Assembly (NCBI RefSeq): GCF_003226565.1
Contig: NZ_QKOE01000002.1
Coordinates: 124,001 to 188,000 of the forward strand
Direction of reading: 5' to 3'
DNA length: 64,000 bases
DNA from: Parazoarcus communis SWub3 = DSM 12120
Lineage (GTDB): Bacteria > Pseudomonadota > Gammaproteobacteria > Burkholderiales > Rhodocyclaceae
Part shown: one piece after another, positions 32,488 through 60,026 of the stretch
Layout of the letters: every line of letters begins with the position of its first letter
How positions within the stretch are numbered: position 1 is the stretch's first letter
Notes under the pieces: model-generated
Database searches by the model: none
Told to the model about the DNA's origin: nothing
What the model saw: only the letters and a program-made list of their open reading frames with translations
Program-made: the position numbers and the translations under genes

Positions 32488-32913
32488 CGATGGCGCCTCC
32501 GATACGGACGGAACAGTCGTGATGTTACGCGCAATCGGTGCAGTGGGGGGGCTGGAAGCGCGCCTGTCAATTGCGTGATGTTTGACACAGTCCGGCGTCG
32601 TTCTGCGGCACAAGGTGGAATTTCTGCCCGAACGGACGTGTCTCAGCGCGGCAAACCGCGCACAAGTCGCGATACACTGCGTATCGGCAACGGCTGATGC
32701 GGCACCGCAATGTAACGGTATCAGTGTACGGACATTCCTCAGCATCCAGAGCTGGATGGGGAGAGGGCGTTCGTTGATTAGGACCGGAAGATTGCCGGAA
32801 CCAGGTGAGGGTCGCGTGCCGGGCGGGAAACAGCGGAATGAGGGCGTGTTTCTTGACAGGTGCGGCAGATCGCCGGTTTGACGGCCTTCTGGCATGACCA
32901 GATGACAGGCAAC
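32488..32913. other. Leader and promoter region of the light-sensing operon
   Basis: This stretch of 426 bp lies between divergent genes and has no other gene. It contains the inverted repeat CGATAC-ACTGC-GTATCG (32670-32686), overlapping a possible -10 box TACACT (32673-32678) with no convincing -35. A GCGCGG-CAAA-CCGCGC hairpin lies just upstream, near 32645. I looked for PpsR-type TGT-N12-ACA sites and found no good match. Confidence 0.4.
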
Positions 32914-35900
32914 ATGAAGAACAAGAAAAATCCGCATCCTGTGCCGCCGACGCCGGCTGGCCGCAAGACCTTCATTGCCGGTATCGGCGCTTCCGCTGGC
33001 GGCCTGGAGGCGTTGACGCAGCTGATCGGCCAGTTGAGGCCGGGTCTGTCCTGTGCGTATGTGGTCCTGCAGCATCTGTCCCCCAGCTATCGCAGCATGA
33101 TGGCGGAGATTCTCGGTCGTGAGACCGATCTCAGGGTGAAGGAGCTGGAACAGGGTGACGTGCCTGAGCCGGGGGTGGTGTATGTGGTGCCGTCCAACGC
33201 CAATGCCTTGCTCAAGGACGGACGTCTGGTGCTGGTCCATGCGCCACCCGAAGTCGTGCCCAAGCCCTCGATCAATCAGTTCTTCATCTCCCTTGCTGCA
33301 GAGGAAGGCGAGTCGGCCATTGGCGTGATCCTTTCAGGCACCGGGTCGGACGGGGTTGCGGGCTTGCGTGCGATACAGGCAGCCGGCGGCTTCACGCTGG
33401 TGCAGCAGCCGGACACCGCCAAGTACGACGGTATGCCACGTGCGGCGATCGAGGCCGGGGTGGCCGATCACGTGCTGGCCCCGGATGACATCGCGGCACA
33501 GATCGCCCGTTTGCTTGAGTTGCCAGCCGAGCACAATGACGTGGAGGCGCCTGTCGATCTGCTTGCGAGCCTGTTCAAGCAGTTGCGCGAACGGCTGGAT
33601 TTCGATTTTTCCGGCTACAAGATGGGGACGCTGATGCGACGCATCCGGCGTCGTCAGTTTGCCACTGGCTGTTCGGACATGCCGGCCTATCTGAAGTGGG
33701 TGGAGTCCAACCCCGAGGAGCTCGACCACCTCGCACGCGACATCCTGATCTCGGTGACGGCTTTCTTCCGTGATCGCGATGCCTTTGTTGCACTGCGCCA
33801 GAGCGTCGCCGACATCGTGGCGCGCAAGCCGGCGGGCAGCGAGATTCGTGTCTGGGTAGCGGGTTGTGCAAGTGGCGAGGAAGCGTACTCGATCGCGATG
33901 CTGTTCGCCGAGGCACTGGGTGACCGGCTGATGCTCTACCGCATCCAGATCTTTGCGACCGATATCGACGACGACGCACTCAATGTGGCACGCCGCGGCG
34001 TGTACCCTGCGGCATCGACCACCGAGGTGCCGGCCGAGTTGCTGGAGCGTTTCTTCCGCCATACCGGCAATACCTATGAGGCGGGCAAGCAGTTGCGCGA
34101 CATGATCGTGTTTGCGCGCCACAACCTGGTGAGTGATCCGCCCTTCCTGCGGCTCGATCTGGTCTCATGCCGCAATGTGTTGATCTACTTCGATGCCCCC
34201 CTTCAGGCCAAGGTCCTGCAGACCTTCCACTTTGGCATGAACAAGGAGGGCGTCCTGTTTCTCGGCCGGTCCGAGAGCATTGCGCAAGCCGAACAATTGT
34301 TTGTGCCGCTCAATCGCCGGGAGCGCTTGTTCCATGCTTCGGGTGAGGTCGCGGCCAGGTCGCCACAGGCGACAGTGGCACTGGCCTCGAGACCGCGCGA
34401 AAAGCGCCGCGAATCGCAGCACGAGATCCTGCTGAAGGGGCTGGTGTCGGGTCTGGGTGTGACCGTGGTGATGTGTGATCGCCATGCCAACGTGCTGCAT
34501 GCCGCTGGGGATACCGAGCGCTTCCTGCATTTTCCTGCGGGGGCCTCACGCTTGAGCCTGCCGGATCTGGTTTCCCCCGCCTTGCGGGCCGAAGTCATTG
34601 CCCTGATGCGGCGCTGCGATCAGCAGGCACAGGTCCAGTGCAGCCGGCCGCGACGCGTCGGCGAGCACTGGATCAAGCTCGTGGCCGAGCGTGTGTCGAG
34701 CGCGGACGAAGTGTTCTACCTGTTCATCTTCTGCCCCGAGCCGGAGGTGGCGCCGGTTCCGGGCGGTGCTGCCGACGTCCATGCCGGCGAGACCGACGCC
34801 CGTGGTGAACAGGCGCTCGCCGATGAGTTGATGGCCACGCGTGAGCATCTGCAGGCGCTGATCGAGGAGATGGCCACGGCCAATGAGGAGATGCAGGCCC
34901 TCAATGAAGAAGCCCAGGCATCGAATGAGGAACTGCAGGCCACCAATGAGGAGCTCGAGGCCGCCAACGAGGAAATGCAGGCGACCAACGAGGAACTCGT
35001 CAGTCTCAACGAAGAGCTCAATGTCAAGACCGTCGAGCTGTCCGGACTGTATGAGGAGTATGCCCATCTTTACGATGCGCTCGAGTTTCCAGTGCTGGTG
35101 TTCGACCGTGAACTGCAGCTGACCCGCTTCAATGCGCCTGCGGCGCGGCGCTTCGACCTGCGCACCACGGCGCTGCGTCAGCACCTTGCGCGCCTGAAGC
35201 TGCCGGTTCCCCTACCGGTGCTCGAAACCTTGCTGGGCCGGGCAATGGCTCATGGTGACCGCGAGCAGGAGATGGTCATGGTCGAGGATCGGCACTTGCG
35301 CATCATCGTCACCCCCGGGCTGAACAAGCGTGGTGATGTCCGGTCCCTGGTAGCCAGCTTCATCGATGTCAGCGACATTGTCCGTACCCAGGTTGCTTTG
35401 TCGGAATCGGAGCAGCGGCTGCATGCCCTGATGGACAAGACAACGGTGATGTTTGCGATGCGCAATCTGGCGGGTCAGTACCTGTATGTCAATCGCCGCT
35501 TTGTCGAGTTTTTTGGCCTGGAGGGCAGGGAGGTCGTCGGCGCCAATGATTTCAGCCTGTTCGATAAAACCCTGGCCGGTGATATCTGGGGGGCAACCGT
35601 CGAGTCCATGCGCACGCGTAGCAACATCGTCGTCGACCATCGCCTGGAACGGGAAGCGGAAACACGCTACCTGCGCGCCGTCCATCAGACACTGAGTGAT
35701 GAGGCGGGGCAACCTGTTGCGCTGATCTTCGAGGCCGAGGATGTCACTGCCAGCCGGCATGCGGAGGAACAGCTGCGGATCACCGCCAAGGTGTTCGACC
35801 ATGCCGGTGAGGCCATTGTGGTGACTGATCCGGACGGCTTCATCCAGACCGTCAATAGCGCTTTCTGCCGCATTACCGGTTACGGGGTTGGCGATGCGAT

Positions 35901-37446
35901 GGGCCGGCAGATCGGCCGCCTGTTGCGTTCTGGCCGTCATAGTCGCGAGTTCTACGAGGCGATGTGGCAGGCCCTGAAGGGTAACGGCTTCTGGCAAGGA
36001 GAAATCTGGAACAAGCGCAAGAATGGCGAGATCTTTCCCGAGTGGCTGACCATCAACCGGGTGGAGGGTGCCGAAGGTCAGATCGAGCATTTCGTTGCGG
36101 TGTTTTCGGACATCAGCGACATCAAGAATGCCCAACGTCGTGCAGAGTATCTGGCCACTCACGATCCGCTGACCCGCCTGCCCAACCGTTCCCTGTTTCA
36201 GGACCGTCTCCGTCAGTCACTCGCGCATGCACGCCGGCATGGTGCGCGCGTGGCGCTGATGTTCATCGATCTGGACAATTTCAAGACCATCAACGACACG
36301 CTGGGCCACGATATCGGCGACGAGTTGCTGAAGGCGGCTGCATTGCGCCTGCAACAGGTGGTGCGTGATTTCGATACCGTGGCTCGTCTGGGGGGTGACG
36401 AATTCACCGCCATCCTGGGTGACTGCGACGCAGATGGCGCAAGCCTGGTCGCCAAGCGGGTTGTCGACGAGTTGTCCACCTCGTTCGACATCGAGGGGCG
36501 CAAGCTCTTCGTGTCGGCCAGTGTCGGGATCGCCTTCTATCCGGAAGACGGGCAGGACAGCAACACCCTGGTGAAAGCGGCTGATACCGCGATGTACCGT
36601 GCCAAGGAGCTGGGGCGCAACCGGGTGGAGTTCTTCGTGCCCGATCTGCATGTGCGCCTGCTCAAGCGCGCGACGCTGGAGAGTGCGCTGCGTGCGGCGC
36701 TGGAGCAGAAGCGCTTGCGTCTGGTGTTTCAGCCCCAGTTCACGGCCTGTAGTGAGCGCCGTCTGATTGGTGCCGAGGCGCTGGTGCGCTGGAAGGATCC
36801 GGTGCTCGGTGAAGTGTCGCCGGCGGAGTTCATTCCGATGAGTGAGAGCAGCGGGCTGATTCTGGAGGTGTCGAAGGAAGTCGAACGCCTGCTGATCGAG
36901 CATCTGCACCTGTGGATCACCGCCGGGATGTCACCGCCACCGATCTCGCTGAACTGCTCGCCGCGCAGTATGCGCGAGCCGGATATGGCGCTGCGCCTGA
37001 TCTCTGCGCTCAAGCGTGCGGCGGTGCCGGCCGAATTGCTGTGTATCGAGATTACCGAAGGGGCTCTGCTCGAGAACACGCAGCACGTTACCGACAACCT
37101 CGGCACCCTTGCACGGCATGGCATCAGGATCAGTGTCGATGACTTTGGTACTGGCTACTCGTCATTGATCTACCTGAAGCGTCTGCCCTTGTCCGAACTC
37201 AAGGTCGATAAGAGTTTTGTCGATGGGCTGGGTGAAGATCAGGATGACGAGGCGATTGCCGAGGCCATTCTCGGGCTGGCCCACTCGCTTGGACTGGATA
37301 CCGTTGCCGAGGGGGTGGAGACCGAGCGTCAGCTCGAATGGCTGCGTCGGCATGGCTGCAAGGCGGTGCAGGGATATCTGTTCTCCAGACCGCTGGAGGC
37401 GGGAAGTTTCGAAGCCATGATGGAACAACGACATCACGATGAATAA
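32914..37446 (+). CDS. CheB-CheR-PAS-GGDEF-EAL multidomain signalling protein
   Basis: Starting from ATG 32914 the protein has 1510 residues; GTG 32860 and ATG 32902 are alternatives, none with a strong ribosome binding site. Order: CheB methylesterase (about 15-185; catalytic GIGASAGG, QHLSPSY, GTGSDGV), CheR methyltransferase (about 205-470; AGCASGEEAYS), a coiled coil of NEE(L/M)QA repeats (about 642-711), and three PAS-like domains (about 715-1075). A GGDEF domain follows, with intact RLGGDEF near residue 1160 and an I-site RDFD five residues before it. An EAL domain (GAEALVRW, DDFGTGYSSL) ends the protein. CheB lacks a receiver domain. It overlaps bphP by 8 bp, so it is probably the output partner of that photoreceptor. 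Confidence 0.93.
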   Translation: MKNKKNPHPVPPTPAGRKTFIAGIGASAGGLEALTQLIGQLRPGLSCAYVVLQHLSPSYRSMMAEILGRETDLRVKELEQGDVPEPGVVYVVPSNANALLKDGRLVLVHAPPEVVPKPSINQFFISLAAEEGESAIGVILSGTGSDGVAGLRAIQAAGGFTLVQQPDTAKYDGMPRAAIEAGVADHVLAPDDIAAQIARLLELPAEHNDVEAPVDLLASLFKQLRERLDFDFSGYKMGTLMRRIRRRQFATGCSDMPAYLKWVESNPEELDHLARDILISVTAFFRDRDAFVALRQSVADIVARKPAGSEIRVWVAGCASGEEAYSIAMLFAEALGDRLMLYRIQIFATDIDDDALNVARRGVYPAASTTEVPAELLERFFRHTGNTYEAGKQLRDMIVFARHNLVSDPPFLRLDLVSCRNVLIYFDAPLQAKVLQTFHFGMNKEGVLFLGRSESIAQAEQLFVPLNRRERLFHASGEVAARSPQATVALASRPREKRRESQHEILLKGLVSGLGVTVVMCDRHANVLHAAGDTERFLHFPAGASRLSLPDLVSPALRAEVIALMRRCDQQAQVQCSRPRRVGEHWIKLVAERVSSADEVFYLFIFCPEPEVAPVPGGAADVHAGETDARGEQALADELMATREHLQALIEEMATANEEMQALNEEAQASNEELQATNEELEAANEEMQATNEELVSLNEELNVKTVELSGLYEEYAHLYDALEFPVLVFDRELQLTRFNAPAARRFDLRTTALRQHLARLKLPVPLPVLETLLGRAMAHGDREQEMVMVEDRHLRIIVTPGLNKRGDVRSLVASFIDVSDIVRTQVALSESEQRLHALMDKTTVMFAMRNLAGQYLYVNRRFVEFFGLEGREVVGANDFSLFDKTLAGDIWGATVESMRTRSNIVVDHRLEREAETRYLRAVHQTLSDEAGQPVALIFEAEDVTASRHAEEQLRITAKVFDHAGEAIVVTDPDGFIQTVNSAFCRITGYGVGDAMGRQIGRLLRSGRHSREFYEAMWQALKGNGFWQGEIWNKRKNGEIFPEWLTINRVEGAEGQIEHFVAVFSDISDIKNAQRRAEYLATHDPLTRLPNRSLFQDRLRQSLAHARRHGARVALMFIDLDNFKTINDTLGHDIGDELLKAAALRLQQVVRDFDTVARLGGDEFTAILGDCDADGASLVAKRVVDELSTSFDIEGRKLFVSASVGIAFYPEDGQDSNTLVKAADTAMYRAKELGRNRVEFFVPDLHVRLLKRATLESALRAALEQKRLRLVFQPQFTACSERRLIGAEALVRWKDPVLGEVSPAEFIPMSESSGLILEVSKEVERLLIEHLHLWITAGMSPPPISLNCSPRSMREPDMALRLISALKRAAVPAELLCIEITEGALLENTQHVTDNLGTLARHGIRISVDDFGTGYSSLIYLKRLPLSELKVDKSFVDGLGEDQDDEAIAEAILGLAHSLGLDTVAEGVETERQLEWLRRHGCKAVQGYLFSRPLEAGSFEAMMEQRHHDE

Positions 37447-38899
37447 GCGATTTCTGGCCGAGTGCGAACGTGAACGCCTGCATCTTTCCGGCCACATTCA
37501 GCCACACGGGGCCTTGCTGGTGGTGGATCAGGCCGCGCGGATAACGCATCGCTCGTGCAATTTCCCGGCTGTCCTGGGGGATGAGATCCTTGCCCCGGGT
37601 GATCTGTTGCCGCCGGTGCTGGCTGCGCACTGCGATACGCTGCCCGGGCAGGCCGGCGCCCGCCTGCACGTCCGTCACGCCCTCAGTAGTGCCGGCCTGT
37701 CGTTCGATCTGACCATCAGTCGTAATGCGGCAGGCGAGCGGGTGCTTGAACTGACGCCTGCACCGGACGACGACCTGGACTGGCAGGGCTTGCCGGCAAA
37801 GGTTGTCGGCCAGCCCCGGGATCATGACGAACTGGCCGCGCGCAAACAGGCGCTGGTCGAGCGGATCGCCGGAATTACGGGATTCTGCCGGGTGATGTAT
37901 TACCGTTTCCGCCAGGATGGGGATGGTGAGGTGATCGCAGAGGCGCGCAATCCCGATGTATATGGTAGCTATCTTGGCTTGCGTTTTCCTGCGAGCGATA
38001 TTCCCCAGATCGCGCGCGAGCTGTATCGGCAGAGCCCCTGGCGTTTGATTCCCGATGCCAGTGCGGCGCCGGTGGCCGTGGAGGGCATTGACGGTGTGCC
38101 GGATCTGGGGCTGGCCGATCTGCGCAGCGTGTCGCCGGTGCATCTGGTCTATCTTGCGAACATGGGGGTGCAGGCTTCGTTGTCGTTGCCGGTGATGGTA
38201 GCCGGTCACCTGCATGGCCTGATTGCCTGTCATCACCATCAGCCCCGGCTGTTGTCGCTGGCCGTGCTTGAGGCTGCGGCCGGAGAGGTACGCACGCATG
38301 GTCTGGTTCTGACCGCCTTCATTGCCCAGCACCGGATCCGGCTGGTGGATGGTCTGGTCCGGCGGTTTTCGGGGATCGAGGATATTGTCACCCGGGCGGG
38401 AGGGCTGCTCGCCGCCTGGGACACGCTCGGCCCCTTGCTCGCGGACGAACTGGAGAGCGAAGGGGTGCATCTCTTGCTCGATGCTGAGCAGGTGGCGTTT
38501 GGAGAAACCTTTGAACCTGAGGCGTTGGCCCGCGTCGATGAGTGGTTCTGCGATGAGCTGGCCGACGCCCTGTGGTTGTCCGATACCTTGAGTAGCGAGT
38601 TGCCTGGCATGCCGATGAGCCGGATTGCCGGCATGGTGGCAATCAAGGGGCGAGCCGCCGATGGCCGCATGTTGCGGGTGTATCTGACCCGCCAGGAACA
38701 CATTCACGAGGTGGCCTGGGGAGGCAATCCCGACAAGCCGGTCGAGCATCATGATGGCCAGCTGGGGATTGCGCCGCGGCGGTCCTTCGAGAAGTGGATT
38801 GAAAAACGCATGGGGCACAGCCGGCCCTGGGAAAACGAAACCCGCCTGCTTGGGTTGCGTCTGCGGGAGATGCTGCTGGATGTCGCCAACCGATATTGA
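37439..38899 (+). CDS. bphP: Bacteriophytochrome photosensory core (PAS-GAF-PHY) without histidine kinase
   Basis: The 486-residue protein contains only the photosensory module. The biliverdin-binding cysteine is Cys9 (AECERERLHLSG), followed by the IQPHGAL motif. The GAF pocket shows PASDIP at 184-189, Tyr196, His235 (VSPVHLVYLANMG) and CHHHQP at 264-269. The PHY tongue carries PRRSF at 446-450. The chain ends about 36 residues later in a helix; there is no HisKA, GGDEF or PAS output. It should bind biliverdin and sense red/far-red light, acting on a partner in trans. The ATG lies inside the stop region of the CheB-CheR-GGDEF-EAL gene, and its end overlaps bphO by 20 bp. Confidence 0.93.
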   Translation: MNKRFLAECERERLHLSGHIQPHGALLVVDQAARITHRSCNFPAVLGDEILAPGDLLPPVLAAHCDTLPGQAGARLHVRHALSSAGLSFDLTISRNAAGERVLELTPAPDDDLDWQGLPAKVVGQPRDHDELAARKQALVERIAGITGFCRVMYYRFRQDGDGEVIAEARNPDVYGSYLGLRFPASDIPQIARELYRQSPWRLIPDASAAPVAVEGIDGVPDLGLADLRSVSPVHLVYLANMGVQASLSLPVMVAGHLHGLIACHHHQPRLLSLAVLEAAAGEVRTHGLVLTAFIAQHRIRLVDGLVRRFSGIEDIVTRAGGLLAAWDTLGPLLADELESEGVHLLLDAEQVAFGETFEPEALARVDEWFCDELADALWLSDTLSSELPGMPMSRIAGMVAIKGRAADGRMLRVYLTRQEHIHEVAWGGNPDKPVEHHDGQLGIAPRRSFEKWIEKRMGHSRPWENETRLLGLRLREMLLDVANRY

Positions 38900-39494
38900 T
38901 CCTGTGCAGGTGCTGCGCGAGCGCACACGCGATGCGCATCGCGCCCTGGAGACCACGCCACCGGTGCGGCGCCTGATGGCCGCTACCGTCGGTCTTGGCG
39001 ATGTCGATGCATTTCTCTGCTTGTCTTATCGCTTCTTCACCGGGCTGGAGCGGGCGCTCGGTCATGCCCTGAGTGCTTCGCCGCTCTATCGTACCCGCAG
39101 TCTGGCCCTTGGGGAGGCATTGACTGCGCGCGGCCTGGTCTTGCCGTCTGCTGCCGACACCGGAAACTGGATGGAGGATGAGGCCGCCTTGCTCGGTGTG
39201 ATCTATACCGTCGAAGGCTCGTCGCTGGGGGCGGCGGTCATCGATCAGCATCTGCGTGCCAGACTGGGTGCCGAGGCCGGGCCTGCGCTCGAGTACTTCC
39301 GCCGTTTCGGGCGGGACAGCCGGGAGCACTGGATGCATGTCGTCCATGCGCTGAGGTGCTCGCTCAGGGATGAGGCGCAGATCGGGCGCGCCTGTGACGG
39401 AGCCATCCGTGTCTTTGATGGCATGCATGCCTTGTTCGAGCGTGATGTTGCGCATTGCCTGCCGTCTTGCCAGAGGGCGTCCGCACCCTGCTGA
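38880..39494 (+). CDS. bphO: Biliverdin-producing heme oxygenase
   Basis: ATG 38880, inside the 3' end of bphP, gives 204 residues. The proximal heme ligand is His20 in RTRDAHRALE. The distal helix contains YTVEGSSLGAAVI. These are the marks of the BphO/HmuO heme oxygenase family, which cleaves heme to biliverdin, iron and CO. Coupling to bphP means chromophore and apoprotein are made together. It is the last gene of the operon. The C-terminus (CLPSCQRASAPC) is Cys-rich for this family. Confidence 0.93.
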   Translation: MSPTDIDPVQVLRERTRDAHRALETTPPVRRLMAATVGLGDVDAFLCLSYRFFTGLERALGHALSASPLYRTRSLALGEALTARGLVLPSAADTGNWMEDEAALLGVIYTVEGSSLGAAVIDQHLRARLGAEAGPALEYFRRFGRDSREHWMHVVHALRCSLRDEAQIGRACDGAIRVFDGMHALFERDVAHCLPSCQRASAPC

Positions 39495-39758
39495 CATGGT
39501 TCATTCCGTGACACGCTGTTCAGAGTTGAATCGCTCGATCCGCCGGGGTGCGTACAGGCGACGCATGCTGCACTGCAGGTGAACTGCCGCTTCTGCAGAG
39601 TGCGATGGCATGGAAACGCTTGATGATAAGCGGATGATGCGATGCACTATGCCTAGTTGATTGAGTCTTTTGGCATGCATTGTGCAAATGCTGGTGTTGA
39701 TTTGGGGGCCGGGAGTTGACTGCCCTCCGTGTCATCGGCTGCAGGAGCGTGTCGAAAG

Positions 39759-40502
39759 ATGAATGATGAACGTAGTGTCTGGTGCAGGCTGCTGGGCGTC
39801 GGGGCGCCGTGGACGGTTGTCGAGTCTCGAGTGGATGAAGCCCGCCGACAGTGTGAGGTGTCAATTGCGCTTGAAGCGCCGCGTGGGTGGTTCGGCCTGT
39901 CGAAGCGAATTCAGCCGGCGACGCGTGAACTGTCCTGGCGGCACGTCAACTTTGGTAACTGGGACGTGCGTGTCAGCCTGATGGCGCCGGCAGATGTCAC
40001 CCTGCCTACCCTGTCTTGGGCGGGTGAGCCGGATCTGCCCTTTACCCGCGAACTGAGCCAGCAGGTTTTTGCCTACCTGCGTGAAGGGTGCAGCCTGCAG
40101 AGTATCTGTACCCTGTTGCGTCTTCCGATTGCCGAACTCTGGCGCTTCCGCTATGCCATCGACAATGGTCGCTGGCTGGCGGGTGACGTCGTGGCCGCCC
40201 CGAGCCCTGTGGCTGCAGTATCTGGTGAGTCCGGCCTGGATGCCGCTGCCGGCACGGTGTCAGCTACGGGAGGTGGGGTGCCGGATGTGAGCGATCCGGT
40301 CTGGCTGGATCTGGTGCATGGTTCGCGGGCGCTGGATATCCGGGTGCTGGGGCTCAGGTTGTTGCTGAGCCGCTTGCGCACCCAGTTCGAAGTGATTGCC
40401 GATGACGAGGTGCGCCTGCTCAAGCTGCAGGAACTGCATCGCTATTTCGTCAAGAACCGGCGCCTGCTGACGCATGAGTTGGCGCAACTGGAGGAGGCAT
40501 GA
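39759..40502 (+). CDS. Uncharacterised protein resembling an ISL3 transposase N-terminus
   Basis: I start at ATG 39759, giving 247 residues; GTG 39729 is possible. The first 130 residues follow the layout of ISL3-family transposases: LLGVGAPWTVVESRVD, an EVSIALEAPRG strand, LSWRHVNFGNWDVRV, LPFTRELSQQVFAYL, and a helix-turn-helix-like CSLQSICTLLRLP. The zinc-finger cysteines are missing, and there is no catalytic DDE domain. Instead a low-complexity linker and a helical C-terminus follow (about 190-247). It may be a domesticated DNA-binding protein. It overlaps the next gene by 4 bp (ATGA). Function unknown. Confidence 0.6.
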   Translation: MNDERSVWCRLLGVGAPWTVVESRVDEARRQCEVSIALEAPRGWFGLSKRIQPATRELSWRHVNFGNWDVRVSLMAPADVTLPTLSWAGEPDLPFTRELSQQVFAYLREGCSLQSICTLLRLPIAELWRFRYAIDNGRWLAGDVVAAPSPVAAVSGESGLDAAAGTVSATGGGVPDVSDPVWLDLVHGSRALDIRVLGLRLLLSRLRTQFEVIADDEVRLLKLQELHRYFVKNRRLLTHELAQLEEA

Positions 40503-41515
40503 ACATGCTGCTGACCGAACCATCACCCGTGCGGCCGCAGGGCGGGCAGCTGATGAGCGTGGCCGAGGCGGCGCGCCGGATCGAGCAGGGTGGCTTCTTC
40601 AGCATCGCGGGTGACGAAGCGCTGTTGCGTCAGTTGCCGCGCGGCAACTGGATTGGCGGGACGATCTGTTACTTCATGGCGCAGCAGGGTGGGCAGCATA
40701 GCCGCGATCAGGTGTTCGTGTGTGAGGCGGAGGTGCTGGATGCCCGTCCGCAGGTCCGCTTTTATGATCTGGGCTCGATCGGGCAGGTGTGTGTTGACGC
40801 GCCGGACAATGGCTATTCGATCATCATTCTGCCGGCGTTTTCGGCGATTCATGCCCACTATGCGCAGCATGCGCCCGAGTTCGACGACATGTTCGTCAAG
40901 CCTCTGGTTGGCTGGGTGTCGGGCACGGAGCCGGGTGCGCGTGACGCCGGTTTGCCGGCTGTCATCAACGGCCAGACGGGCGAGCTGGATCACGATCGTG
41001 CCATCGTCATGCATGTGCCCTTGCCGGAGGAGTGTTATGCAGCGGTGGAGATCATCAACCTGCAGCGACCGGGCGAGGGTGATCGTTTCCGCTTCGATGA
41101 GACCGGCTTTTCCGCCGGCGAATGCTGGGTGAATGGCACCAGGGCGCGACTGGCCGAGTATCTGGAACGCGCGGGGACGGATCTGAGTCTGCCGCTGGTG
41201 GCCGATTACGCCGGGGCAATGATCAACGTCTCGTTCAAGGGCATTGACCAGACACATGGGCGGGTGGATTTCTTTGCCCCTGTGTTTGCCGGCGTCGACT
41301 ATCGGCTGGCGGCCCCTCAGCGGCTTGGTGGTGCGGCGCTGCAGGATGGGCGCGCCGTCGCCTTTTCGTGCAACTGTATCCTCAACTACATCAACGACAA
41401 GCTGGAGGGGCGGCGCACCGGTCGTTTCACCGGGCCGATGACGTTTGGCGAGATTGCCTGGCAGTTGCTCAACCAGACCCTGGTGTACCTGACGATCGAA
41501 CGTGTGGAGGGTTGA
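40499..41515 (+). CDS. Conserved hypothetical protein coupled to the ISL3-like gene
   Basis: The 338-residue protein has no signal peptide or membrane segment and no catalytic motif that I recognise. It shows long conserved-looking blocks such as GGFFSIAGDEALLRQLPRGNWIGGT, then IILPAFSAIHAHYA and FSCNCILNYINDKLEG. The second block resembles the glycine/cysteine-containing C-terminal strand of FIST-type sensory domains only weakly. The start overlaps the preceding stop, so the two proteins are probably made together. GGAGG precedes the ATG. Function unknown. Confidence 0.7.
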   Translation: MNMLLTEPSPVRPQGGQLMSVAEAARRIEQGGFFSIAGDEALLRQLPRGNWIGGTICYFMAQQGGQHSRDQVFVCEAEVLDARPQVRFYDLGSIGQVCVDAPDNGYSIIILPAFSAIHAHYAQHAPEFDDMFVKPLVGWVSGTEPGARDAGLPAVINGQTGELDHDRAIVMHVPLPEECYAAVEIINLQRPGEGDRFRFDETGFSAGECWVNGTRARLAEYLERAGTDLSLPLVADYAGAMINVSFKGIDQTHGRVDFFAPVFAGVDYRLAAPQRLGGAALQDGRAVAFSCNCILNYINDKLEGRRTGRFTGPMTFGEIAWQLLNQTLVYLTIERVEG

Positions 41516-58412: not shown

Positions 58413-60026
58413 ATGACAATCGCCAACAGAATGCAACTGCTGCTGGCCATCCTGATCACCGCCCTGGTGGTGGTCGGGGCGGCAGGCCTGGTTCAGATGA
58501 GCCGTATCAACGGCATGGTGGTGTATCAGGGCGAGAACATCCTGCCCAGTATCGAGACGCTGGCCCTGGCGGATCACCAGGTGCTCAATTTCCGGGGCCT
58601 GGTATTGCTGCATGTGCTGGCGACGGATGCCGAAGCGATGGGCAAGGTCGAGGCCAGGCTCGCCGAGACCCGCAGCGCGGCGGAGCAGGCGCTCAAGGCC
58701 TACGAGCCCCTCATCAGCAACGATGAGGATCGGCGCTTGCTTGAGGCTGACCGGGCGGCGCTCAAGGCCTATCTGGAGTCGGCTGATCGCGCGCTTGCGC
58801 TGTCCCGGGACAATCGCAACGAAGAGGCCCAGGCCCAGGTATTGGGCGATGGTGCGACGCGCGCACGCGAATTGATTGAAACCCTGCGTCGTCATATGGA
58901 TTTCAACGAGAAGATGGCTTCCGACTTCGAGAAAGAGGCAGAGTCAAGCTATCAGTCCAGCTTCATGATGACGGTCGGTCTGGTGCTGGCGGCAGCGATT
59001 GGTGGCGGTGTGTTCGGCATGCTGACCTATCGCCGGGTGGTCGGCTCACTGAAGTCGATGAACGAGGTCATTCAACAGATTGCCTCCTCACTGGACTTCA
59101 CCCGTCGGGTGACGGTGCAAGGTAGTGACGAAGTGGCTGATACAGGGCGTGCCTTCAATCAGCTGATCGAGCGCGTACAGCAAAGCCTGCACGCGATGGC
59201 CGATCATGCGGGCAAGGTGTCCTCGGCTGGCACCAGCCTGGCGACCTCGGCACAGCAGGTTTCGATCGGGTCGAGTGAGCAGAGCGAAGCGGCGTCGGCG
59301 ATGGCTGCGGCGGTCGAGGAAATGACGGTCAGCATCAATCATGTTGCCGAGCGCGCAGCCGACGCCAATAAGCTGGCTACGCGAGCAGGCGAGGATGCGC
59401 ATAGCGGGGCCGAGGTGATTGGACTGACGCTGGCCGATATCCGGCGCATCGACGAAGCGGTGCGCAAGGCGGCAGACCGCGTGCGTCAGCTTGATGCCGA
59501 CAGTGCCAAGGTCAATGCGGTGGTGACGGTGATCAAGGAGGTGGCTGACCAGACCAACCTGCTGGCGCTCAATGCGGCGATCGAGGCGGCACGTGCGGGT
59601 GAGCAGGGACGTGGATTCGCCGTGGTGGCGGACGAGGTGCGCAAACTGGCCGAACGTACTGCGCAGTCGACACAGGAGATCTCCTCCACCATGGAGGCGA
59701 TGCAGTCAGGGGCGCGCAACGCGGTGTCCGGCATGGACCAGGCGGTGGAGCAGGTTGAGCGTGGGGTGGTGCACGCCCAACAGGCGGAAGAGTCGATTCG
59801 CCAGATCGAAGACGGGTCGGCACGTACCGTGGAGATGGTTGCGGAAATCTCGGATGCGATACGCGAACAGAGCGTCGCCAGCTCCAACATTGCACAACAG
59901 GTGGAACGGGTGGCGCAGATGACCGACGAGAACAGCGCCGCGGCGGGCAGTACCTCGGACACCGCTCATGTGCTGACCGGGCTGGCGCGGGAAATGCAAG
60001 CCGAAGTGTCCCGCTACCGGGTGTGA
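58413..60026 (+). CDS. Methyl-accepting chemotaxis protein
   Basis: The 537-residue receptor has an N-terminal membrane helix (9-29), a four-helix-bundle-type periplasmic domain (about 30-185), a second helix (about 188-208), and a HAMP domain. A cytoplasmic signalling domain follows with the hairpin motif [46 protein letters not shown] precedes the ATG. No C-terminal CheR-binding pentapeptide is present. The ligand is unknown. A sigma28-like promoter suggests coexpression with flagellar genes. Confidence 0.95.

Follow-up and report, generated by a model that had tools for sequence, protein, structure and literature searches.

What does a bacteriophytochrome control when it carries no output domain of its own? 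The question is raised by three overlapping genes in a 64,000-nucleotide window (the whole stretch analysed) of Parazoarcus communis SWub3 = DSM 12120, which encode a very large protein joining CheB, CheR, PAS, GGDEF and EAL domains (hereafter the giant), a kinase-less bacteriophytochrome (BphP) and a heme oxygenase (BphO). The answer that we favour, with a probability of about 0.68, is that BphP is a separate light-sensing subunit that controls the cyclic di-GMP (c-di-GMP) output of the giant in trans. Open reading frames, stop codons and overlaps were read from the sequence; the giant and BphP genes share 8 bp and the BphP and BphO genes 20 bp, in agreement with an earlier sequence-only reading of this DNA.

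BphP is predicted to be a biliverdin-binding bacteriophytochrome, as it combines a PAS_2-GAF-PHY core with an N-terminal Cys, the DIP Asp, the GAF His and a PRxSF tongue, and its residues 6-466 match solved bacteriophytochromes in the PDB (E 8e-60). Cys9, Asp187 of PASDIP, His235, His265 and both Arg447 and Ser449 of PRxSF, which we take to be the biliverdin-pocket and tongue residues, are invariant in an alignment of 32 relatives. The Pfam PHY match ends at residue 484 of 486, leaving no output domain, and neither HisKA nor HATPase was found in BphP by Pfam; the earlier claims of an intact pocket and of a chain that stops right after PHY thus stand. The NCBIfam model for BphP phytochrome histidine kinases (NF041576) scores 174 of 1040 bits, its match stopping at residue 466. 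Among 5.8 billion proteins there are 2188 homologs of BphP, the best 120 of which are 386-511 residues long, though proteins of up to 850 residues were eligible. In the whole 5.0 Mb genome the single PHY match is BphP and the single heme oxygenase match is BphO, both within the operon.

The giant, described earlier as a protein of about 1510 residues with CheB-CheR, PAS and intact GGDEF and EAL domains, was found by Pfam to be just that, its I-site RxxD lying 5 residues ahead of GGDEF. With GGDEF, I-site and EAL residues all intact it is probably a bifunctional GGDEF-EAL protein, and with both chemotaxis domains and their catalytic residues in one chain it is also a CheB-CheR fusion. The GGDEF motif, the metal Asp and the I-site Asp are unchanged in 35 of 35 giants, and so are the EAL residues save one Lys (34/35); the I-site Arg is kept in 34 of 35, both changes being in the same protein (L026). 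Most giants also keep their CheB and CheR residues; Ser27, His54 and Asp146 are presumably the CheB triad. No receiver domain was found by Pfam anywhere in the giant, so that its CheB is receiver-free, and no MCPsignal domain (PF00015) either, which sets it apart from the methyl-accepting chemotaxis proteins (MCPs).

A search of other genomes for the same gene order, proposed in the sequence-only reading, found the arrangement repeatedly. A search of named genomes, one per species, with the alignment of 32 relatives gave 79 loci from the best 80 of 149 matches. The BphP frame ends after PHY (stopping within 30 residues of the match) in 48 of the 79, in one of them (L067) owing to a contig end, and carries a C-terminal output in 31. 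Immediately upstream of BphP and on its strand, a GGDEF-EAL gene is present in 37 of the 48, as against none of the 31. Thirty-four of these 37 upstream genes carry CheR in the same frame; two of the others are cut by contig ends (L016, L035), and in L025 the giant is encoded as two genes, CheB-CheR-coil and PAS-GGDEF-EAL, with BphP and then BphO still downstream. All 37 positive loci fall within the 43 closest ones (L005-L047), and a heme oxygenase adjoins downstream in 26 of these 43. The positive loci include Azonexus and other Rhodocyclales, Gallionellaceae, Methylomonas, Halomonas/Vreelandella, Litchfieldella, Shewanella, Nitrincola, Marinobacterium, Idiomarina and Pseudidiomarina. The neighbourhood of BphP and giant is not due to chance, and the output-less BphP with its giant represents a widespread family rather than a one-off split.

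Two further samples, at the level of order and class, gave the same picture. The order-wide sample (399 genomes) holds a phytochrome match in 44; three matches other than our own reach at least 48% identity, and each of them ends with PHY and is directly preceded by an EAL frame. The class-wide sample (369 genomes) gave three such frames besides our own, two with a giant upstream (L171, L172) and a third (L089) with a deletion like that of L042, its frame having the same opening as L042. The latter locus, from a Halothiobacillus metagenome-assembled genome, was considered as a second split giant and rejected, because its CheB-CheR runs out of frame into the BphP region, as expected of a deletion or assembly fault. 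In the reverse direction, a search by similarity to CheR and coil led to seven giants that were inspected (six further frames of at least 1500 residues were left out of this count), and BphP adjoins four of them (L164, frame-broken; L165; L166; L170, giant in two frames).

Some related proteins are arranged differently. In Chromatium and Marichromatium (L048, L049, L050, L053) a BphP of 529-536 residues and about 35% identity ends after PHY; no giant adjoins it, and no heme oxygenase was found there by BLAST. Another genus of the same family (G020, locus L004) has a contig-cut module of an EAL fragment, a BphP ending after PHY (38% identity) and a heme oxygenase in succession. In Aquimarina (L064) a BphP with C-terminal output lies about 2.3 kb from a 1385-residue CheB-CheR-coil protein, which is encoded downstream on the opposite strand. 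A kinase-less BphP (P0025) and a CheB-CheR-PAS-HisKA-HATPase-REC protein (P0181) are each listed with a longest contig 7312 bases in length, a hint that kinase-less BphPs may in some cases adjoin a kinase-type CheB-CheR protein rather than a GGDEF-EAL one.

The trees of giant and BphP agree closely (Mantel r 0.911 for 38 pairs; none of 2000 permutations was as high). Taken domain by domain, EAL, GGDEF and the PAS that comes first after the coil show the best agreement with BphP (r 0.89), followed by the second PAS and the PAS-like fold ahead of the coil (0.84-0.85), CheR (0.80) and the last PAS (0.79); the agreement is lowest for CheB (0.47) and the coil (0.43). Together, the recurrence of the pair, the agreement of the trees and the near-invariant GGDEF and EAL residues make light control of c-di-GMP in trans likely. 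Where CheB is gone (L010) or degenerate (L020 and L021), BphP still adjoins and GGDEF and EAL are intact, so that light to c-di-GMP looks like the core function and methylation like an accessory one.

We propose the following sequence of events. BphO would convert heme to biliverdin, which would attach at Cys9 of BphP, and red/far-red light would then switch BphP, as the intact pocket residues and the published photocycle of another bacterium's output-less BphP lead us to expect. By docking on the giant's PAS-GGDEF-EAL half, BphP would tip the balance between c-di-GMP synthesis and breakdown. In the last and weakest step, CheR and CheB of the giant would methylate and demethylate Glu residues of its own coil and so adjust sensitivity, much as chemotaxis adaptation does; the methylation domains may thereby provide adaptation to steady light.

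Several points weigh against control of the giant by BphP. Six of the 43 close loci are not among the 37: two are contig-cut (L008, L014), one has a frame-broken giant (L036), one carries the deletion (L042), and in two (L030, L031) BphP has other genes beside it. Three of the seven giants inspected in the reverse search have no adjacent BphP (L167-L169), so a giant can exist without this sensor. Furthermore, the best tree agreement is that of EAL, which is nearest to bphP on the DNA, and linkage alone could produce such a gradient. Since the gradient partly tracks DNA distance, action of BphP on the PAS-GGDEF-EAL half is suggested, not proven, and we set per-domain agreement aside as proof of a docking site.

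The two genes might be adjacent merely through shared regulation and joint transfer, with BphP using another partner, such as an orphan kinase or an MCP, and the giant answering ligands of its own PAS domains. The giants without BphP, the output-less BphPs of the Chromatium type without a giant and the 37 MCPsignal matches in the genome speak for such an arrangement, which we nevertheless consider unlikely: a GGDEF-EAL neighbour in 37 of 48 PHY-ending BphPs and in none of the others, the overlap of the genes here and the agreement of the trees all count against it, and no other recurrent neighbour of BphP was noticed, neighbours beyond CheB, CheR, PAS, GGDEF, EAL and heme oxygenase having been inspected at few loci. 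It is more improbable still that BphP controls the CheB-CheR half, with light setting chemoreceptor methylation and the c-di-GMP domains forming a second, separately controlled output. The intact CheB and CheR residues of most giants would suit that role, as would a CheB that lacks a receiver domain and thus needs another regulator. Against it stand the loci in which BphP adjoins a giant with lost or degenerate CheB, the poor agreement of CheB and coil with the BphP tree (subject to the linkage caveat) and the lack of an MCP gene within the operon. Of the in-trans control put forward in the sequence-only reading, the coupling of BphP to the giant is therefore well supported by adjacency and trees, with the c-di-GMP branch probably the relevant one; receptor methylation by light has become less likely as worded, given the operon without MCP, the receiver-free CheB and a coil whose mixed evidence points to methylation within the giant itself.

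In chemotaxis, MCPs adapt through the methyltransferase CheR and the methylesterase CheB, which act on Glu-rich helical sites spaced by seven residues. The giant differs in holding the enzymes and a candidate substrate, its coil, in one polypeptide. Of all windows of 30 residues in the giant, that of residues 672-701 is the best conserved (mean majority identity 0.92, against 0.86 for the runner-up). Across 155 sequences, Asn, Glu and Glu at heptad positions e, f and g vary less (0.31, 0.30 and 0.11 bits) than the presumed core positions a and d (0.58 and 0.59), the second Glu of NEE being the least variable of all. The strict motif [EQ][EQ]xxA[ST], which we take to be the MCP methylation consensus, occurs 108 times in 4557 coil residues of 38 proteins and 7 times in 50831 residues elsewhere; its spacings in the coil are all multiples of 7, and shuffled coils hold a mean of 4.15 motifs and a maximum of 11 (300 rounds). 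The giant studied here has three strict motifs, at spacings of 7 and 14. Motif pairs spaced by 7, 14, 21 or 28 are present in 34 of 6676 open frames in the loci, and all 34 encode CheR proteins; among CheR frames, such a pair is missing from L042 and an L036 fragment (no coil), L041 (spacing 35), L010, L020 and L021.

The number of motifs also follows the state of CheB. We compared 176 non-redundant sequences, comprising the giants of the loci, 120 proteins found by CheR similarity and the results of a CheR search seeded with L021, after removal of 6 duplicates and 9 near-identical rows. At most one strict motif is found in all five giants with lost or degenerate CheB (L010, L020, L021, P0217, P0243), as against 5 of 164 with intact CheB; seven sequences in which the start of CheB is missing were set aside (L022, L019, P0174, P0181, P0189, P0212 and P0247, with 3, 3, 3, 1, 2, 2 and 4 motifs, respectively). 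With automated scoring, which counted P0247 as broken and P0243 as truncated, the proportions were 4 of 5 and 5 of 164 (Fisher p 1.9e-5); the figure of five of five is a regrouping based on Pfam, in which the CheB match of P0247 begins late, at profile position 11, and P0243 has no CheB match. This joint loss suggests that the coil is a methylation substrate in cis.

The coil evidence has its own counterweights. Part of the set came from the search seeded with L021, a protein picked for its degenerate CheB, and the five cases of CheB loss fall into two neighbourhoods when the tree is computed without CheB and coil, which we cautiously count as two independent losses. A heptad-spaced strict pair occurs in one of the 29 MCP frames of this genome that were read (30 loci of the 37 matches), a control that rules out the strict motif as a general MCP signature; 12 of the 29 have a site 101 residues after the tip, and a second MCP frame with a heptad pair is a cut frame beside the CheR of L087. 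A phylum sample of 398 genomes added 29 CheR-coil loci, of which 28 were read (L138 was left out) and six are giants. NEE heptads (3-7) are present in 28 of 28 and the CheB triad is intact in 27, yet 13 of these 27 have at most one strict motif, which rules out the motif as a general mark of intact CheB. The protein with the altered triad (L156) has no strict motif, but its relative L163, whose triad is intact, has none either. The link of motif number to CheB is thus limited to the close giant family, leaving room for a mechanical role of the coil.

We put the chance slightly above even that the coil is a dimerising signalling helix and nothing else, its conservation being mechanical and its decay along with CheB part of a general decay of the N-terminal half. 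The AlphaFold2 model with one long helix, the scarcity of strict pairs in the MCPs of this genome and the more distant CheR-coil proteins with intact CheB and few motifs agree with this, and long heptad linkers between signalling domains are common. CheR, too, is changed in P0217 (Tyr to Cys) and L020 (Tyr425 to His). On the other side, conservation is stronger at the Glu and Asn positions beyond the presumed core than at the core positions, and the three CheR positions scored are unchanged in four of the five CheB-loss cases. We therefore offer only tentatively the picture of the giant as a self-adapting second-messenger enzyme, in which a detachable phytochrome subunit would relay light, CheR and CheB of the same chain would write and erase methyl esters on the coil, and memory would need neither chemoreceptor nor CheA. 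The same cis-substrate logic may extend to CheB-CheR fusions as a class. Histidine kinases of that class (P0169, P0181, P0190, P0206-P0208) share with the giant CheB-CheR, a coil of NEE heptads (1-3 strict motifs) and PAS, whereas their output is HisKA-HATPase-REC in place of GGDEF-EAL.

Parts of this module have precedents. A kinase-less BphP with its own heme oxygenase is already known: Cenrod_2641 of Ca. Symbiobacter mobilis has no apparent output domain and shares an apparent operon with a heme oxygenase; its photocycle, shown in E. coli, takes it from about 710 nm to 754 nm, and it reverts fast in the dark (PMC4053972). For Cenrod_2641/Cenrod_2642 the accessible part of that paper names no partner protein, and CheB appears 0 times in its main text. 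In Erythrobacter flavus, BPHP-15570, whose gene is directly preceded by that of a heme oxygenase, reportedly acts on a diguanylate cyclase encoded separately, DGC-0450 (PMC12172448); bacteriophytochrome beside heme oxygenase and cyclase as a separate protein are common to both systems, while the published model includes BphP autophosphorylation and the accessible text mentions no CheB-CheR-GGDEF-EAL partner. PadC and PadC-EAL proteins (BphG1 of Rhodobacter sphaeroides, IsPadC; PMC9587094) combine, as does the present module, a phytochrome with Cys, DIP and PRxSF and a GGDEF output with or without EAL; there, a single chain holds both sensor and output, with a coiled-coil linker between them. 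Here nothing is fused behind PHY, GGDEF-EAL is encoded by the upstream gene, and CheB-CheR is added. A literature search with most subscription journals outside its scope, and some sources available in part, found neither the three-gene module nor methylation in cis described.

Table 1. Features of the operon, with positions in the window.
Feature	Residues	Position	Strand	Basis
Giant CheB-CheR-coil-PAS-GGDEF-EAL protein, 1510 aa		ATG 32914, stop 37446	+	ORF and Pfam
CheB methylesterase domain	23-197	32980..33504	+	Pfam; Ser27-His54-Asp146 present
CheR_N and CheR S-adenosylmethionine methyltransferase	218-465	33565..34308	+	Pfam (CheR_N 218-267, CheR 281-465), conserved positions
PAS-like fold between CheR and coil	500-609	34411..34740	+	AlphaFold2 model secondary structure; no Pfam match
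Coil, one 91-residue helix	631-721	34804..35076	+	AlphaFold2 model, conservation
NEE-x-x-A-[ST]-like heptad repeat, candidate methyl-acceptor sites	658-701	34885..35016	+	Conservation, motif counts
PAS_4 domain	842-948	35437..35757	+	Pfam
PAS domain	960-1067	35791..36114	+	Pfam
GGDEF diguanylate cyclase domain with I-site	1081-1237	36154..36624	+	Pfam, conserved residues
EAL phosphodiesterase domain	1258-1493	36685..37392	+	Pfam, conserved residues
Kinase-less bacteriophytochrome BphP, PAS_2-GAF-PHY, 486 aa		ATG 37439..38899	+	ORF, Pfam, alignment, PDB sequence match
Heme oxygenase BphO, 204 aa, predicted biliverdin supply		ATG 38880..39494	+	Pfam Heme_oxygenase

The features are collected in Table 1. 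An in-frame GTG lies at 32860, upstream of the ATG of the giant. The label PAS_10 for residues 495-615 was dropped in favour of PAS-like, as the Pfam PAS_10 of relatives sits after the coil. Downstream of the operon, a predicted 257-residue protein (39729-40502) without Pfam or NCBIfam match is followed by a DUF6976 gene (40499-41515). Neither the DUF6976 gene nor a PHY domain has a match in four other genomes of the same genus, pointing to a variable region here. An MCP signalling domain is encoded at 59373-59924 on the + strand (C155:183373-183924), about 20 kb from the operon.

Altogether, this light-to-c-di-GMP module, undescribed in the literature searched, is real and recurrent, and its sensor is likely a separate subunit. 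If so, phytochrome cores in beta- and gammaproteobacteria would serve c-di-GMP enzymes as detachable regulatory subunits, and the pair would provide a natural two-protein optogenetic layout. The coil result reduces the question of the substrate of CheB-CheR fusions to a single mass-spectrometry test; if methylation does occur in cis, adaptation would be a transplantable module for c-di-GMP enzymes and kinases alike.

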